This document shows positions 9,183 to 27,395 of a stretch of 64,000 nt of DNA, piece by piece. The notes beneath the pieces were generated by a model. The model was not told the DNA's origin, did no database searches, and worked only from the letters and a program-made list of their open reading frames with translations. The stretch is from a virus, in IMG/VR virus record IMGVR_UViG_3300029319_000002, positions 1 through 64,000 of that record. One strand, written 5' to 3'. The position numbers were made by a program, and so were the translations under genes. The first letter of the stretch is position 1; each line of letters starts with the position of its first letter.

Positions 9183-9635
9183 ATGGCTAAAAAATTACCT
9201 AGTAATCCCCTAATCAGTGAAGTGCTACAAGCTGCTTCTAGTGCAAAAACAAAAAAAGAAAAGATCAAAATCCTACAAGAGTACAAAAACGATGCTCTAC
9301 TAGCAATTTTGATTTGGAACTTTGATGAAACTGCAAAGAGTGCTCTACCTGAGGGTGATGTTCCATACACACCTTCAGATGCACCTGCTGGAACAAACTA
9401 TCATACTCGACTTGTAGTTGAGCATAAGAAACTGTTTCACTTTATTCGTGGTGCATCAGATCTAAATCAAAACCGTAAGGAAATGATGTTCATTAATATG
9501 CTAGAGTCACTTCATGCTGACGAAGCAGAAGTTCTAGTTCTTACTAAAGATGGAAAACTCTCTAGTAAGTATAGAATCACTCTACCAACTGTTAAAGAAG
9601 CATTTCCAGAAGTTACTTGGGGGAATAGAGGTTGA
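9183..9635 (+). CDS. Conserved T4-like phage protein (possibly DUF6433)
   Basis: A 150-residue soluble protein. The segments LPSNPLISEVLQAAS, ALLAILIWNFDETAKSALPEG and HKKLFHFIRGASDLNQNRKE recall a family widespread in T4-like cyanophages and pelagiphages that I believe is DUF6433; I cannot verify this here. No catalytic motif is visible. It lies between a late promoter and a small acidic protein gene. Function unknown. Confidence 0.75.
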   Translation: MAKKLPSNPLISEVLQAASSAKTKKEKIKILQEYKNDALLAILIWNFDETAKSALPEGDVPYTPSDAPAGTNYHTRLVVEHKKLFHFIRGASDLNQNRKEMMFINMLESLHADEAEVLVLTKDGKLSSKYRITLPTVKEAFPEVTWGNRG

Positions 9636-9636
9636 T

Positions 9637-9894
9637 ATGGGAAGTTTTTCAGTATTATTTCCAGATTGTGACCCTTCGCAAGCAGATGACACTAGTTTAC
9701 CAACTAATGCATATTTGGTCGAATATATTCAAGGTGAAACTTCACATTACGATATCGTGATGTCCAGTAAAAAAGTAGATATATTTGACCATTACTATGA
9801 TAAGTATAGAAAAGATCTTTTGAATATCACTCAAACAGAGGGTAGGATTCGTCCTAACCTTTATGGAGAGAGCAAAAAGAAAAAGGGAAAGTGA
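9637..9894 (+). CDS. Small conserved protein, unknown
   Basis: 85 residues from the ATG at 9637, which has GAGGTTGAT upstream; an in-frame ATG at 9550 lies inside the previous gene and lacks a binding site. Mixed sequence with PTNAYLVEYIQGETSHYDIV and a Lys-rich end. No family recognised. Confidence 0.7.
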   Translation: MGSFSVLFPDCDPSQADDTSLPTNAYLVEYIQGETSHYDIVMSSKKVDIFDHYYDKYRKDLLNITQTEGRIRPNLYGESKKKKGK

Positions 9895-9962
9895 TTTCCC
9901 AAAAAGGGGGAAAAAAATTCCCCAAAATTTTTGCTCAAAAAGGTCGATTAAAAATTGTATTA

Positions 9963-12958: not shown

Positions 12959-13717
12959 ATGCCAAGAAATAGAAAGAACGGAAACAACTCTCCAATTGGA
13001 GTTGGAATGACTGCTAAGCAAATGAGACGCAGAAAACCTATCAATGCAGATTTGATGGTTGACATTAATCCACTTACGGATAATCAAAAAAAGTTTTTCG
13101 ATTCTTATAAGAAAGGGCAAAATTTATTTGCATACGGATGTGCAGGCACAGGTAAAACATTCATCGCACTATATCTTGCATTGAAAGAAGTTCTTGATGA
13201 TAGAACTCCATATGATAAAATTTACATTGTAAGATCTCTTGTTTCTACCAGAGAAATTGGATTTCTTCCTGGAGACCATGAAGATAAGGCAGCACTCTAT
13301 CAGATTCCTTATAAGAATATGGTAAAATACATGTTTGAAATGCCTACAGATTCTGACTTTGAACTTCTTTATGGCAACTTAAAAGCACAAGAAACTATTA
13401 GTTTCTGGTCTACATCCTTTATTCGTGGTACAACTCTCGATAATGCAATTGTCATTGTTGATGAATGCCAAAACTTGAATTTTCACGAACTTGATAGTAT
13501 AATTACAAGGATAGGTGACGATTCTAAAATCTGTTTTTGTGGTGATGCCACACAGACGGATCTAACCAAAACTTATGAAAAGAATGGTATTCTTGATTTC
13601 AAGAAAATCCTCCACTCTATGAACGAGTTTGACATTGTTGAATTTGGTCTTGATGATATTGTACGTTCTGGTCTAGTTAAATCTTACCTATTTGCTAAAA
13701 ACGAATTACAATTATAA
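12959..13717 (+). CDS. phoH: PhoH-like ATPase
   Basis: A 252-residue P-loop NTPase of the PhoH family. Walker A is GCAGTGKTFIALYLAL (about residues 61-76), a conserved LVSTREIGFLPGD follows near 94-108, and Walker B is IVIVDECQN near 165-173, with a FCGDATQTD sensor near 195. PhoH proteins are very common in marine phages; their biochemical role (proposed RNA or nucleotide-related ATPase) is unsettled. The start follows the previous stop by three bases and the stop overlaps the exonuclease ATG by one base. Confidence 0.93.
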   Translation: MPRNRKNGNNSPIGVGMTAKQMRRRKPINADLMVDINPLTDNQKKFFDSYKKGQNLFAYGCAGTGKTFIALYLALKEVLDDRTPYDKIYIVRSLVSTREIGFLPGDHEDKAALYQIPYKNMVKYMFEMPTDSDFELLYGNLKAQETISFWSTSFIRGTTLDNAIVIVDECQNLNFHELDSIITRIGDDSKICFCGDATQTDLTKTYEKNGILDFKKILHSMNEFDIVEFGLDDIVRSGLVKSYLFAKNELQL

Positions 13718-14406
13718 TGTTTGAACACGTTGAACTAGATCTCAGTCCTCTCGAAAGAGAAACCATTGATGGAGTTCGTTATTACAAAATACCAGATAAT
13801 CATAGTCTCCTCAAATTAGTTTCTATTACTTCGGTGATCAGTCACTACAATAAGGAGACTTTTGCTAAGTGGAGAGAAAAAGTTGGTGATGACAAAGCCA
13901 ATGAAATCACCAGAAAAGCAACTAGTAGGGGCACGGACTTTCATACTCTTGCTGAACATCTTCTTAATAATGATGAACTTCCATCAGGATCAGTTCAACC
14001 ACTTTCTGAATTCTTATATCTTATTGCAAAAGATGAACTAAAGAATATCAATAAAATTTATGGTCTAGAAAAAGCACTTTATAGTAAAGAGTTGGGAATT
14101 GCAGGAACTGTAGATTGTATTGCAGAATATAATAATGAGTTAGCAATCATTGACTTTAAGACAAGTAAAAAACCCAAACCCAGAGAGTGGGTTGAAGGTT
14201 ATTTTGTACAATGTGCAGCATACGCTTGCATGTTATATGAGATGACTGGTATAATTGTAAAGAAATTCGTCATCCTTATGGCTTGTGAAGACGGAGACTG
14301 TGTTGTCTATGAAGAATATGATAAAGCAACATACATCAAAAAATTGTCCCAATACATCACTAAATTTGTAAATGATAAACTTAATTACTATGAAAAAAAC
14401 GTTTGA
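13717..14406 (+). CDS. PD-(D/E)XK (RecB/Cas4-like) exonuclease
   Basis: A 229-residue nuclease. The motif set is visible: HTLAEHLL near residue 77 (metal-ligand His), GIAGTVDCIAEYNNELAIIDFKTSKKP at about 127-153 (Asp, then DxK), and a helix with Q and Y in YFVQCAAYACML. This is the RecB-type order used by phage and Cas4-like exonucleases. It probably helps in DNA degradation or recombination. It starts one base inside phoH and overlaps gp33, so it belongs to the replication/recombination block. Confidence 0.85.
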   Translation: MFEHVELDLSPLERETIDGVRYYKIPDNHSLLKLVSITSVISHYNKETFAKWREKVGDDKANEITRKATSRGTDFHTLAEHLLNNDELPSGSVQPLSEFLYLIAKDELKNINKIYGLEKALYSKELGIAGTVDCIAEYNNELAIIDFKTSKKPKPREWVEGYFVQCAAYACMLYEMTGIIVKKFVILMACEDGDCVVYEEYDKATYIKKLSQYITKFVNDKLNYYEKNV

Positions 14407-20032: not shown

Positions 20033-20761
20033 ATGAGTCAGTACATACCTTTTTTAAATTATAATGTTGCCGATATCCTGACTCTTTTTGGAGAACCCTC
20101 TTTATCTACTTTTTACATGGTATTTCTACCTGTGGGTGAAGTAGGTTCTAATTTAGCTAACGCATTCAAAGAAGCAGAATTATATAATACATCAAAAGAT
20201 GGATATAGACTTGAGGAAAAAATGTCCTTACTATGTTCTGATGCAACTCTTCCAGGATCTACATTTAACACTGTAGAAGTTAGAGGAAATCGTCAAGGAA
20301 TCACTGAGAGAGTTGCAAATTATAAAATATATCCACCAGTAGATTTTTCATTTATGGTAGACGCTGGACACTCAGTAATTCGTCTATTTGAAACTTGGAT
20401 GGGATTCATCTCTCCTTTAAATGGTGATCCAGATGATCCAACATCATATTATAAATTTAGATATCCTGATGAATATATTTTAGATTTTTATATCGTAAAA
20501 TTTGAGAAAAATGAAACCGCATTTGATCCAGGTGCTTCCAATTCACTAGAAATATTTCAGCAGTCTACAAAAACAGCTTATAAGTTTAAACGTGCATATC
20601 CTGCAAATATGGCATCCATTCCGTTGTCATATGATGGATCTTCACTAATCAAGTCTAGTATTACTTTTAACTATGATCGATATTATGCCTTCGATGTCGA
20701 AAAAGATATCACACCAACATTCATTAAAGAGTTTATTGATAACATCGTAAAGGGTGGATAA
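20033..20761 (+). CDS. Tail-tube-fold protein, probably gp54 (tube initiator)
   Basis: A 242-residue protein. The region CSDATLPGSTFNTVEVRGN...TERVANYKIYPPVDFSFMVDAGHSVIRLFETWMGFISP is typical of tail-tube-type proteins (a loop after ATLPG, then beta strands). It ends with YAFDVEKDITPTFIKEFIDNIV. Its place beside gp4/gp48 and before the hub genes suggests gp54, the baseplate tail-tube initiator, rather than the major tube protein gp19, but sequence alone does not separate the two. It is divergent from gp4. Confidence 0.65.
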   Translation: MSQYIPFLNYNVADILTLFGEPSLSTFYMVFLPVGEVGSNLANAFKEAELYNTSKDGYRLEEKMSLLCSDATLPGSTFNTVEVRGNRQGITERVANYKIYPPVDFSFMVDAGHSVIRLFETWMGFISPLNGDPDDPTSYYKFRYPDEYILDFYIVKFEKNETAFDPGASNSLEIFQQSTKTAYKFKRAYPANMASIPLSYDGSSLIKSSITFNYDRYYAFDVEKDITPTFIKEFIDNIVKGG

Positions 20762-20793: not shown

Positions 20794-21522
20794 ATGCCTT
20801 TACCAAAAATTGCTACTCCCAAGTATGAATTGGAGTTACCTTCAACTGGAGAAACTATTGAATATAGACCATTTTTAGTCAAAGAAGAAAAAATTCTTGT
20901 GCTTGCTCTGGAAAGTGGTAGTCAGAATCAAATTACTAAAGCAGTAAAAGATGTTTTGAAGAATTGCATCTCTACGAAAGGGATCAAAATTGATAAACTT
21001 CCCACCTTTGATATCGAATATCTTTTCTTAAATGTTCGTGCAAAATCCATTGGAGAGAGTGTAGATGTAGAGGTCATCTGTCCTGATGATGGTCGAACTA
21101 CTGTGAAAAAGACTATCTATCTTGATGAAATTGAAGTTAAAAAGAGTGATGATCACAATCCAGTGATTGAAGTTGGAAATGGATATTTTGTAAAGATGAA
21201 ATATCCCTCACTAGATCAATTTATTGAAAATAACTTTGAAGTTGAAGACAATAAAACTGATGAAAATTTTAAGAAATCTTTGAGTTTGATTGCATCTTGT
21301 ATTGATTCTGTATACAATCAGGATGAAGCATGGGATCCCTCTGATTGTACAAAGAAAGAACTAACTGACTTTATCGAGTCACTGAATAGCACACAGTTTA
21401 AGAAAATTGAAAAGTTCTTTGAAACTGTTCCTAAGTTAGCACACACATTTAAGATTACAAATCCCGAAACTAAGGTTGAAAGTGAGGTAACAATTGAGGG
21501 ATTAGCAAGTTTTTTCGCATAA
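20794..21522 (+). CDS. gp26/gp51-type baseplate hub protein, likely tail assembly chaperone
   Basis: A 242-residue protein of the T4 gp26/gp51 baseplate-hub family: beta-rich start (IATPKYELELPSTGETIEYRPFLVKEEKILVLALES), a middle with VRAKSIGESVDVEVICPDDGR, and a helical C-terminal half (IASCIDSVYNQDEAW, FIESLNSTQFKKIEKFFETVP). T4 gp51 acts as an assembly catalyst for the hub and gp26 is needed in hub formation. The gene ends at a T TTT TTC heptamer followed by UAA and a hairpin, in position to add a 63-residue extension by -1 frameshifting. It lies between the tube protein and the tape-measure-like gene, the place of lambda-type tail chaperones. Confidence 0.82.
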   Translation: MPLPKIATPKYELELPSTGETIEYRPFLVKEEKILVLALESGSQNQITKAVKDVLKNCISTKGIKIDKLPTFDIEYLFLNVRAKSIGESVDVEVICPDDGRTTVKKTIYLDEIEVKKSDDHNPVIEVGNGYFVKMKYPSLDQFIENNFEVEDNKTDENFKKSLSLIASCIDSVYNQDEAWDPSDCTKKELTDFIESLNSTQFKKIEKFFETVPKLAHTFKITNPETKVESEVTIEGLASFFA

Positions 21523-21542
21523 CGATAGGTCATAATGACCTA
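21510..21542 (+). promoter_or_regulatory. Programmed -1 frameshift signal (slippery site plus hairpin)
   Basis: T TTT TTC at 21510-21516 is a canonical X XXY YYZ heptamer in the gp26 frame. The zero-frame UAA stop is at 21520-21522. A perfect 7-bp stem TAGGTCA / TGACCTA (21526-21532, 21536-21542) with loop TAA starts 9 bases after the heptamer. Heptamer, stop and hairpin have the spacing of known -1 frameshift sites. Confidence 0.75.
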
Positions 21543-21707
21543 GTTAATTATTATAGAATAAATTTTGCTTTGGTGCAGTTCCATAAATATTCTTTGACAG
21601 AGCTTGAGGACATGATGCCTTGGGAAAGAGAAATTTATATTTCTATGCTTCAACAGCATCTTGAAGAAGAACGATTAAAGCATCAGCATAAACATGGTAT
21701 CACCTAA
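21510..21707 (+). CDS. -1 frame extension of the gp26-like protein
   Basis: The -1 frame is open from 21498 to the TAA at 21705-21707 and has no ATG before 21612. It codes for an organised peptide: NDLVNYYRINFALVQFHKYS, LTELEDMMPWEREIYISML and QQHLEEERLKHQHKHG, with the Leu/Glu plus PWE pattern of a real protein. The segment before the first ATG is as protein-like as the rest, so internal initiation at 21612 would lose half of it. The frame overlaps the next ATG by 14 bases. Made by frameshifting it would yield a gp26 fusion of about 305 residues, analogous to lambda gpGT. Confidence 0.7.
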   Translation, partial: FFRITIGHNDLVNYYRINFALVQFHKYSLTELEDMMPWEREIYISMLQQHLEEERLKHQHKHGIT

Positions 21708-24700: not shown

Positions 24701-25080
24701 TCGGAGAAACAGGTAGGAATGGTGCTGGACTGGTAGATCCTTTAGATAAGTTTGATTACATGATGCCTTTTGGTGCAAAGAAAATTATTGGGTCACCAGA
24801 ACCAACCCCAACACCTGCTCCTAAACCAACATCAATTACTGCAGTACCTTCACAAACACAAGCAGCAGCAGACGCCGTTTCTAGAACTCCCTCCAGAGCA
24901 TCTAGATCCAGAGTTAGTAATATAAATCTACCTGCAGAAGTGAGAAATAATCCTGTTATCGCAGGATCTACTGGTGGACAAAGTTCATCAACTGAAAACT
25001 ATGTCCCTAGAGTTTCTACTAGGACTAGTAGTGACATTTATCAAATTAACACTAGATCTCTCTTTAATATCGTAGGATAA
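21694..25080 (+). CDS. Large tail protein with lysozyme-like and M23 peptidase domains
   Basis: An 1128-residue structural protein. Residues 1-300 are charged and helical with 13-residue repeats at about 136-185. A hydrophobic/amphipathic section (about 335-500, FLGLSALAGLVEFIPRIIE) resembles tape-measure proteins. A lysozyme/transglycosylase-like domain lies near 688-815, with Glu704 in QIESGGKYD and YDGRYQLG. A zinc peptidase M23 domain lies near 897-1015 with H910xxxD914, H955/H959 and H995-L-H997 (GPHLHWEYG). It would cut peptidoglycan during DNA entry. Position after the chaperone-like gene fits a tape measure or hub protein. Which of this and the next gene sets tail length is open. Confidence 0.82.
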   Translation: MVSPKIGPSFFGKNYERYVSELTTEGTIAGEKLTPEERKEGFKKKGDKINFKNFLEKVLERLPPDAQKKITEGEINRVNFDRYGKKISVDDLRQDSSVNIGSENRNTGLETSGLVAPRSLLINPEQLLDLDEVVLDPEKVSTAIVKSTDPEKVSTAIVKSTDSDKLSSELVKTIDYEKIVNELVKTNTISNVIESKSIELYKDKNGEYRSIVDPEIKEVVVESLDENIPDELDDLIKSVREERIKPKKDDKIFANIKETNKNLLETNKALYGLIKSLEKEMVEDRKKAFKEKDRLRKEQRKATLASSGVVRSGSSSTMRRPRVSGTGLFDNPLFKFLGLSALAGLVEFIPRIIEFVETLPERINKFFTEDIPEFIGKKFEEFKSFVGGFFTDRFNEVKQFFEDIYTGIDEFTGGRLTEFIEGIKGLGPMIVEKSQEFYKTIDDWTGGRISGAFDWIGKNVIDPLGAFFKEKIDYVGTKAGELWSNFSSSFLNFFGDIKFELPEFPDLGVTEVISNTLGLEPAVEGPDLTQDLVAVGGTTAANIAPMSGATGMAVEGMDASQVANQIPNMNVGGKSVQLGTGLSQGGTGEDVQKQISGLKEGGAKGVQVLGTGDAEKDATLQEIVAQNKDFATFLPAVKSDTGGIDYNATAAAGTQQIQDNIAMRTSGPGDPNSAQSKTAREVVASMGFTQPDFDTFKGVVAQIESGGKYDIKGGSGDHYDGRYQLGAEAKTDAARYLGVPDPGHTPESRQRFREDSEMQERFFAAFTKANHTYLMGNPEYRDASPRRKLQILGYAHNQGMGGAEKWMTTGEVGADGFGTKGTKYTDEIRKAFASTAPQQRQPQRSAQPVSAALTGTLDKIDSGQMAHTTSGTRKPSVVSTSAVIPNRDSISVTSRRGMRDHPVAGGQKMHQGTDISAPSGTPLYAFTDGVITDRGHDNGYGNYMAWKDSFGSEHFYAHMTQMSANIGDSVKAGTIIGKSGGGANDPGRGTSTGPHLHWEYGPVGETGRNGAGLVDPLDKFDYMMPFGAKKIIGSPEPTPTPAPKPTSITAVPSQTQAAADAVSRTPSRASRSRVSNINLPAEVRNNPVIAGSTGGQSSSTENYVPRVSTRTSSDIYQINTRSLFNIVG
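22099..22176 (+). repeat. Exact 39-bp tandem repeat
   Basis: Two identical 39-base units (22099-22137 and 22138-22176) code for DPEKVSTAIVKST twice, followed by two diverged units (DSDKLSSELVKT and IDYEKIVNELVKT). The identity at synonymous positions points to a recent duplication. Confidence 0.85.
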
Positions 25081-27395
25081 TGTCATTAGGATCAATTAAA
25101 AGAAAAATAAACGCAAAGACATTATTAGGTCAATCCTCAGTTTTACGAGAGAACAGTGAGGTATTAAAAAAAGGTGTCAAAAAGTTAGCAGTAATATTAA
25201 CTGAAAGAAAGAAGATTAGTCCATCAACATTGATGGCAACAAAAAAACCCGAAGTTGTAGAACAGAAAAGAATTGGTCCAGGTGAATATGATAAACCTGA
25301 GGGTGGTGGATTTCCCCTTGGTCCTTTGTTGGCAGGACTCGGTGCATTAGGTGCTGCAGTAGGACTTGCCGCACTGGATCCAAAAATGTTTTTAAGGAGA
25401 TTTGCAAGAGCATCTCTTAAAGCACTTAAAAATCTTATCGAGAGGTTACTAAAAACATTTAAAGGTGTTATAGAATCTATAGGGAAAGTATTTAAAAAAA
25501 TATTTAATGCAATTGCAGAGAATGTAAAGAAACTAAAGAATCTCATAGACGATAAACTTCTAAAACCATTACGAGAAGCATTTGAGAATGCTATTAATAG
25601 TAAGTGGTTTGCGAAGTTGCGAGGATTTTTTGATGATATTGCAGAATCTGTAAAAACTTTTATTAAGAATTCAGCAGAGAGATTTAAAACATTTGCTGAT
25701 GATATTTTCAAAAGAGTAAAAACTTTTACTGATGATGTTATTGAAGGTGCAATAATAGCATTCAAAAAAATTCTTGATGATATTGCTGACAAGATATTAA
25801 AACCACTCAAATCTGTAGTGCTTGAATTTGTTGAACGCACTAAGAACTTTTTGAAGGATGGTGTAAAAAATATTGGACAAACAATTGCCGAAAGAGCAGG
25901 TAAAGAAAGTTTTGGTGAAGTAATCGAAGTTGTAAGTGATACATTATTAAAGAATTTTGATAATACTGTAGATGGTATTATTGGTTTTGTAAAAAAACCT
26001 GTTGATGCTCTACAAGGATCTCTTAAAGCATTAGGTGATGCTGGAATTGGTATAGTTAAAGTTAGAAGTCTTCCAGGTTTTGAAATAGTAGAAAATACTG
26101 TTGCTAATATATCAAAATCTCTTGACGGTATAGGTAGAAATGTAAAGTCTGCTGTAAGAGATATCCCTAAACAAGTTGGTGAATTAGTTACTGATATAAA
26201 AGCAGGAAATACTCCTGTCCAAAAAGCATTTGGATTTGTTGCACAACAATTCGATCCCGAAGTAATGGTATCGAGATTCGGTAAAGGATTAGATTTTATT
26301 AAGGGAGTAGGATCTCAAATTGGTGGTGCAGTATCTACTATGAAGGAGGGATTATCTCAATTAAACATTGTAGAGCAAGCATCAAAATTTAAAAATGATA
26401 TGGTTGCTAATGTGGGTGGATTCATTGGTGATTTAAAAACTTCCGTAACTAATAATATTCAAAATACCATTTCTGGTGTATTTGGAAAGAGTAATACTCA
26501 ACAACAAATTCTAGGTCAAGCAGAATCTGCTATTCAGCAAATATCTAAAGATGCAAAACCCGGATTAAAGGCAGTTAAGGGTGCTAGTGATCAAGCCACT
26601 AAAGTATTTGATTTATTTGGTCCACTAAAGAGTGGGTGGAGAGAAGCAACAGGTAAGTTTGAGCAACTTTTTGCACTTGCTGAATTTGCAGTTTCATATG
26701 GGTCTGCAATTGATGCTCAAAAGAGAGAAGCAGAAGGAGGACCCCCTGCAAAATTTATGGGAAGTGATATAAAAGGACAGACGATGGGTGATGCTATTCT
26801 AAGTGTATTGGGTGCGTTTGGTGGTTCTGCTATCGGATCTGCATTAGGAACTCAAATTGGTGCTACCATTGGTGCTGCTGTTGGAGCACCGGTTTTTGGT
26901 GTTGGTGCTGCGGTCGGTGCAGGTGTTGGTGGATCATTATTTGGATTTTTAGGATCTGTTCTTGGTGGTATAATTGGTGAAGATATTGGTAAACTAACTT
27001 CTTCAGCAATTGCAGATAGAGTTACTATTCCCGATCCATTCTTAGAAGATAGAAATCTATTTTCTAAAGAAGGTAGAAGTGATTTAACAGTTTTAGGTAT
27101 GTTTGGATTGGGAGAACCTGCTCCTACTGAAGAACAACCTCAAGGTGGATTTGGTAATCTTGCACCTAAACCAGTGAAGATGACCCGTGATTTCCAATCC
27201 ATGGAAGATTACACCGAATACATTACAGATACTGAGGTTGTGATTATTACCAAAGAAAATGTGGTAAATAATGTTGTACAAACACCTATGGTTCAGCAAA
27301 GTAAAGGTGGCATGATTCCTATACCTATTGGTTCTGGTGAATCAGTGTTAGATAATTTTAGATCCAGAGCACTTTCTCAATTAGCATATACCTAA
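25080..27395 (+). CDS. Tape-measure-like tail protein
   Basis: A 771-residue protein overlapping the previous stop by one base. Residues about 105-260 are a long series of amphipathic Lys/Phe/Ile helices (KKIFNAIAENVKKLKNLIDDK, AERFKTFADDIFKRVKTFTDD) typical of tape-measure proteins. A Gly/Ala-rich hydrophobic region at about 575-650 (SAIGSALGTQIGATIGAAVG, GVGAAVGAGVGGSLFGFLGS) could insert in membranes during DNA injection. It is followed by gp27. T4 gp29 occupies the corresponding role, but I see no direct gp29 signature. Confidence 0.72.
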   Translation: MSLGSIKRKINAKTLLGQSSVLRENSEVLKKGVKKLAVILTERKKISPSTLMATKKPEVVEQKRIGPGEYDKPEGGGFPLGPLLAGLGALGAAVGLAALDPKMFLRRFARASLKALKNLIERLLKTFKGVIESIGKVFKKIFNAIAENVKKLKNLIDDKLLKPLREAFENAINSKWFAKLRGFFDDIAESVKTFIKNSAERFKTFADDIFKRVKTFTDDVIEGAIIAFKKILDDIADKILKPLKSVVLEFVERTKNFLKDGVKNIGQTIAERAGKESFGEVIEVVSDTLLKNFDNTVDGIIGFVKKPVDALQGSLKALGDAGIGIVKVRSLPGFEIVENTVANISKSLDGIGRNVKSAVRDIPKQVGELVTDIKAGNTPVQKAFGFVAQQFDPEVMVSRFGKGLDFIKGVGSQIGGAVSTMKEGLSQLNIVEQASKFKNDMVANVGGFIGDLKTSVTNNIQNTISGVFGKSNTQQQILGQAESAIQQISKDAKPGLKAVKGASDQATKVFDLFGPLKSGWREATGKFEQLFALAEFAVSYGSAIDAQKREAEGGPPAKFMGSDIKGQTMGDAILSVLGAFGGSAIGSALGTQIGATIGAAVGAPVFGVGAAVGAGVGGSLFGFLGSVLGGIIGEDIGKLTSSAIADRVTIPDPFLEDRNLFSKEGRSDLTVLGMFGLGEPAPTEEQPQGGFGNLAPKPVKMTRDFQSMEDYTEYITDTEVVIITKENVVNNVVQTPMVQQSKGGMIPIPIGSGESVLDNFRSRALSQLAYT

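Follow-up and report, generated by a model that had tools for sequence, protein, structure and literature searches.

Our comparison of related phage loci indicates that the gp26-like gene of the T4-like cyanophage described here is very probably expressed through a programmed -1 ribosomal frameshift close to its 3' end, rendering both a gp26 protein of 242 aa and, at about 304 aa, a fusion of gp26 with gp51, in the manner of the G/GT pair of lambda. The window analysed is a stretch of 64,000 nt from the IMG/VR virus record IMGVR_UViG_3300029319_000002 (196,048 bases), and the best reading of its sequence is that the 'gp51' found there would be the frameshifted tail of gp26, with no gene of its own. 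The features of the locus are as follows.

20033..20761, + strand: tail-tube-like gene (PF23849; PHROG 45, tail tube), directly upstream of the gp26-like gene
20794..21522, + strand: gp26-like gene, putative short form of the chaperone, 242 aa (PF12322 T4_baseplate, E 3.8e-73)
21510..21516, + strand: slippery heptamer T TTT TTC, in the gp26 frame
21516..21707, + strand: -1 frame extension, 63 aa and then TAA at 21705-21707 (PHROG 634, E 1.7e-27)
21520..21522, + strand: frame-0 stop TAA closing the short form
21526..21542, + strand: stem-loop of 7 bp with a 3-nt loop, candidate stimulator
21520-21523 with 21543-21546, + strand: outer 4-bp stem of the stem-loop
21694..25080, + strand: peptidase M23/lysin-like gene, 1128 aa, downstream of the extension
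25080..27395, + strand: tape-measure-like gene (PHROG 1272)

The match to PF12322 spans residues 9-242 of the gp26-like product, which also matches PHROG 150. The extension belongs to PHROG 634, annotated as 'baseplate hub assembly catalyst' (i.e., gp51), also matches the C-terminal part of PHROG 150 (E 1.4e-8), and corresponds to the region that the annotations of other cyanophages call gp51. The gene order runs from the tube-like gene through the chaperone and the lysin-like gene, whose ATG (21694) overlaps the end of the extension, to the tape-measure-like gene. The gp26-like gene is the sole PF12322 gene in the 196,048-base record, which is perhaps incomplete, and a second PF12322 gene coding for an in-frame long form, as in the T4 arrangement, was not found in it.

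The heptamer at 21510-21516, the UAA at 21520, the 7-bp hairpin 9 nt further on and the -1 frame reported by the initial annotation are all exact in the sequence, and the comparison of relatives lends strong support to its proposal of a -1 shift that links gp26 with a hidden extension. The heptamer is read in frame 0 as the codons TTT (21511-13) and TTC (21514-16), followed by GCA and then the stop at 21520-21522, which places its start 10 nt before the stop. The 38 ORFs of the window (17,937 codons) contain 102 in-frame X XXY YYZ motifs. Six of them are no more than 30 nt away from a stop, and just one of the six (21510) enters a 65-codon -1 frame. Heptamers near the ends of the ORFs at 9550-9894 and 13717-14406 lead into short -1 frames and were judged to be chance occurrences. 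The frame at 9550-9894 has the motif A AAG GGA AAG shortly ahead of its stop (window 9874-9925), followed by A/G-rich inverted repeats; with its short -1 frame, this site is also probably due to chance.

Loci encoding gp26 were collected by searching IMG/VR with six gp26 queries and were supplemented with GenBank phages. The end of gp26 carries T TTT TTC or T TTT TTT in 246/246 usable loci outside the Ackermannviridae, and the GenBank loci added later with T TTT TTC comprise those of the Aeromonas phages Ah1 and CC2, of ACG-2014d and of Bakedbeans. All 88 dereplicated loci have T TTT TTY at this site. As a control, the 88 Phe-Phe pairs found elsewhere in these gp26 genes included a single T TTT TTC and four instances of T TTT TTT. 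Based on gp26 codon usage, and ignoring shared ancestry, finding a T at the end of the preceding codon and TTT for the first Phe in every locus has a probability of ~10^-31. A Phe-Phe pair coded in both frames would itself force T TTT TTY; since this requires translation of the -1 frame upstream of the stop, the conclusion is not weakened. The position of the frame-0 stop varies from 0 to 24 nt past the heptamer (immediately after it in L191 and L202, 3 nt on in most loci, up to 24 nt in L207 and L226), whereas the spacing from heptamer to extension is constant. The frame-0 tails of different loci are unrelated to each other, and the -1 peptide aligns from the Phe-Phe pair in every case. The Rhizobium phage RHph_I9 (L275, near 2680) has T TTT TTG at this position, which reads Phe-Leu in frame 0 and still Phe-Phe in the -1 frame.

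A change of frame by the RNA polymerase slipping on the T-run, in place of the ribosome, would be compatible with a run of six T, but we regard this as highly improbable, because a C caps the T-run in most loci, the run is not lengthened, the X XXY YYZ phase is kept (including T TTT TTG in RHph_I9), and a conserved RNA hairpin follows the site in cyanophages. Six T is also short for slippage by a bacterial RNA polymerase.

The evidence for ribosomes arriving in the extension from gp26 comes from loci in which the extension has no start of its own. In the window the -1 frame is open from 21498 to 21704 (TAA at 21705-21707) and its first ATG lies at 21612; three possible non-ATG start codons that the initial annotation did not list precede it (TTG at 21570, GTG at 21573 and TTG at 21594), none of them close to where the conserved peptide begins. 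Of 245 loci, 148, the window included, lack an in-frame ATG ahead of +55 nt from the heptamer. Over the codons from +9 to +51 of these start-less loci, the -1 frame gave a pN of 0.106 and a pS of 0.655, a ratio of 0.16, compared to a pN/pS of 1.57 in both other frames. The initial annotation had looked to purifying selection on the -1 frame ahead of the ATG as a sign of frameshifting, and this is what the start-less loci display. When the analysis was confined to 29 dereplicated sequences devoid of ATG, GTG and TTG, pN/pS was 0.23 in the -1 frame against 1.3-1.6 elsewhere. The extension peptide is thus conserved upstream of every possible start, which implies that it is reached from gp26.

As an alternative, gp51 could be a small gene in its own right, with ribosomes coupling or reinitiating at a start just past the gp26 stop and the T-run being incidental. 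This view draws on the ATG found 12-18 nt after the start of the heptamer in about a third of loci, and on the many GenBank records that give gp51 its own CDS. Overall, an ATG that could start the extension independently lies within 30 nt of the heptamer in 93/246 loci. We nevertheless consider this alternative unlikely, as 148/245 loci, among them the window, have no such ATG and yet keep the peptide under purifying selection, the ATG sits within the conserved hairpin stem where it is found, and the conservation of the slippery site would be left unexplained. Homologues with their own start had been named in the initial annotation as an observation that would count against a frameshift; the ATG is indeed seen in many close relatives, where it had made gp51 look like an independent gene, but the 148/245 loci without it are decisive, and on the strength of these start-less lineages an independent gp51 start was rejected as a general explanation. 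In most of the loci L001-L080 a -1 frame ATG lies 5 nt after the gp26 stop, inside the hairpin stem, and could possibly allow dual expression of the extension or may simply code for a Met. A further alternative, prompted by the T-even gp51 that holds both parts in one frame, is that the extension is a relict or a sequencing artefact, the remnant of a broken gp26-gp51 fusion. This is scarcely credible, as independently assembled loci all have the same frame break (246/246) and selection on the extension is purifying, a conservation that already refutes it. For frameshifting, by comparison, the alignment of relatives demonstrates, at the level of sequence, a slippery site, a fixed spacing and purifying selection on a start-less -1 frame.

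The hairpin downstream of the heptamer provides more restricted evidence. In the window its stem (21526-21532 with 21536-21542) is a perfect 7 bp with a 3-nt loop, located 9 nt past the heptamer, with a folding energy of -8.9 kcal/mol and a z-score of -3.0 against dinucleotide shuffles. Against peptide-preserving shuffles the z-score is just -1.24, so that the window hairpin is unconvincing as stand-alone evidence. Over 66 dereplicated loci the mean z-score from peptide-preserving shuffles was -1.76 (p 2.5e-15). Among 35 cyanophage-type sequences an 11-bp stem reached 87.8% pairing, compared with 27-46% when the register was slid, and 8 cells carried changes on both sides of the stem; a register scan (55 sequences, 22 registers) gave 77% pairing versus at most 52%. 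With peptide-preserving shuffles, the hairpin was weak or undetectable in many distant relatives. The window and its nearest relative (L001) have the hairpin in a register that differs from that of most relatives; this, together with loci at greater distance that have no hairpin, rules out one universal hairpin. Conservation of both heptamer and hairpin had been named by the initial annotation as a sign that would favour frameshifting, and it holds for the heptamer in 246/246 loci outside the Ackermannviridae and for the hairpin in cyanophages, but not for the hairpin in many distant loci. The hairpin is therefore likely to be a stimulator in cyanophages and no universal element.

We propose that most ribosomes would halt at the UAA at 21520 to release the short form, the 242-aa gp26, while a minority would slip one base back on U UUU UUC, probably aided by the stem-loop 9 nt downstream. 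Slipped ribosomes would continue translation to 21704, generating the long form, a gp26-gp51 fusion of about 304 aa in which F241 would be followed by 63 residues beginning with CGC at 21516. On the model of lambda G/GT, coating of the tape measure protein would fall to the short form, and the extension would serve to bring in tail-tube or hub subunits. Slippage presumably takes place at a useful rate, and these roles of the two products are likewise presumptive.

The lambda gpG/gpGT frameshift has been described together with those of its relatives (Levin 1993; Xu 2004; reviewed in PMC5009743), and conservation of the G-T shift extends widely across the long-tailed phages, T4 excepted (2016 review, PMC5009743). 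As in lambda, the -1 shift of the window would occur near the end of a gene between the tube and tape measure genes, and would add a C-terminal extension to a short chaperone, low abundance being a property of lambda's. The slippery site differs (G GGA AAG in lambda, U UUU UUC in the window), the PF12322 protein is larger and has no significant match to a solved structure, and the 1128-aa lysin-like gene of the window lies between the chaperone and the tape measure gene. The AlphaFold model of gp26 has a pLDDT of 87.5, and in a Foldseek search against 350,542 solved chains the HK97 tail assembly chaperone (2ob9) came first with a non-significant E-value of 0.56 and a TMq of 0.21, a likeness of the model that is suggestive and no evidence of homology. 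The model of a T4-type gp51 falls into two parts joined by a hinge of lower confidence near residues 201-210, and found no match among solved structures with Foldseek; a sequence search of solved structures also gave no match.

In T4, gp26 consists of PF12322 alone and ends in GLKEFFELL, and its junction codons GAG TTC TTT are not slippery, as is also the case in most other T-even gp26 genes examined. T4 gp51 consists of PF12322 (residues 1-201) and then the extension in a single frame, with an alignment that is continuous through the junction. T4 and the window thus share the same family (PF12322, with gp51 also PHROG 634), a short form ending at equivalent residues and a long form running into the same extension, but in T4 gp26 and gp51 are two separate, divergently oriented genes with no frameshift. 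Judged from their sequences, the T4 paralogues gp26 (short) and gp51 (long) look like the two forms of the window split into two genes. The suggestion of the initial annotation that the gp26/51 family is a G/GT-like pair is borne out by the assignment of the extension to the gp51 family (PHROG 634) and by the fusion of both parts in one frame in T4 gp51. From the breadth of the distribution, and not from a tree, we infer that the frameshift would be ancestral and the duplication derived.

Kuttervirus-type loci are without X XXY YYZ, but their -1 frame still carries the extension behind a conserved (A/G)ATTTTC, with a pN/pS of 0.12 over ten codons that lie ahead of any GTG or ATG in most loci. 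A conserved -1 extension was observed in the Ackermannviridae loci (L086, L255-L272, L276) and in the Vibrio phage D532 (L277), with A/G ATT TTC or A CTT TTC in place of X XXY YYZ. A weak P-site slip operates in T7 gene 10, and the same, or another mechanism, is possible in the Ackermannviridae. Taken jointly, we see an even chance that frameshifting is near-universal and probably ancestral for the hub/tail chaperone pair of T4-like phages (Kyanoviridae, pelagiphage-like, Vibrio, Aeromonas, Rhizobium/Sinorhizobium, Acidovorax and Stenotrophomonas phages), that the T-evens substituted a gene duplication for it, that the Ackermannviridae keep the shift at a non-canonical x AUU UUC, and that cyanophage 'gp51' is never free-standing.

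The PRFect paper (PMC10885494) mentions T4-like phages that have one short gene alongside a long fusion gene, and PMC12846349 mentions poly-T slippery sequences in T4-like TAC-N genes, both citing the work of Vladimirov, Gautam and Davidson on T4-like tail assembly chaperones, TAC-N/TAC-NC (2022, Virology 566:9-15). As conveyed by these citing papers, the T4-like TAC-N/TAC-NC resembles the window in having one chaperone in short and long forms, with poly-T sites credited to TAC-N. The TAC locus of Vandenendeviridae and Andersonviridae also has a conserved -1 frame, a poly-T at the end of TAC-N and a downstream piece misannotated as a separate gene, but belongs to other phage families and has the motif GTTTTT (PMC12846349). 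The initial annotation was aware of no description for T4-like cyanophages; judging from the citing papers, the mechanism has probably been described for T4-like phages (Vladimirov et al. 2022), and a frameshifted T4-like chaperone is probably not new in kind. Cyanophage gp51 was not found named as a frameshift product in the literature searched, in which Vladimirov et al. 2022 is represented by the papers that cite it. Novelty may lie in the breadth of the phenomenon, in the test on start-less loci, in the hairpin of cyanophages and in the variant seen in the Ackermannviridae.

The comparison indicates that the common rule of chaperone frameshifting extends to cyanophages and to many other T4-like phages. 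In cyanophage annotations gp51 should be given as a CDS joined with gp26, and several genomes appear to be without gp51 merely through the absence of an ATG. S-CAM1 (L082), ACG-2014j (L090) and ACG-2014d (L279), and likewise Ah1 (L273), CC2 (L274) and ACP17 (L092), have the extension in the -1 frame after gp26 with no annotation for it, apparently because it offers no suitable start codon in these records.
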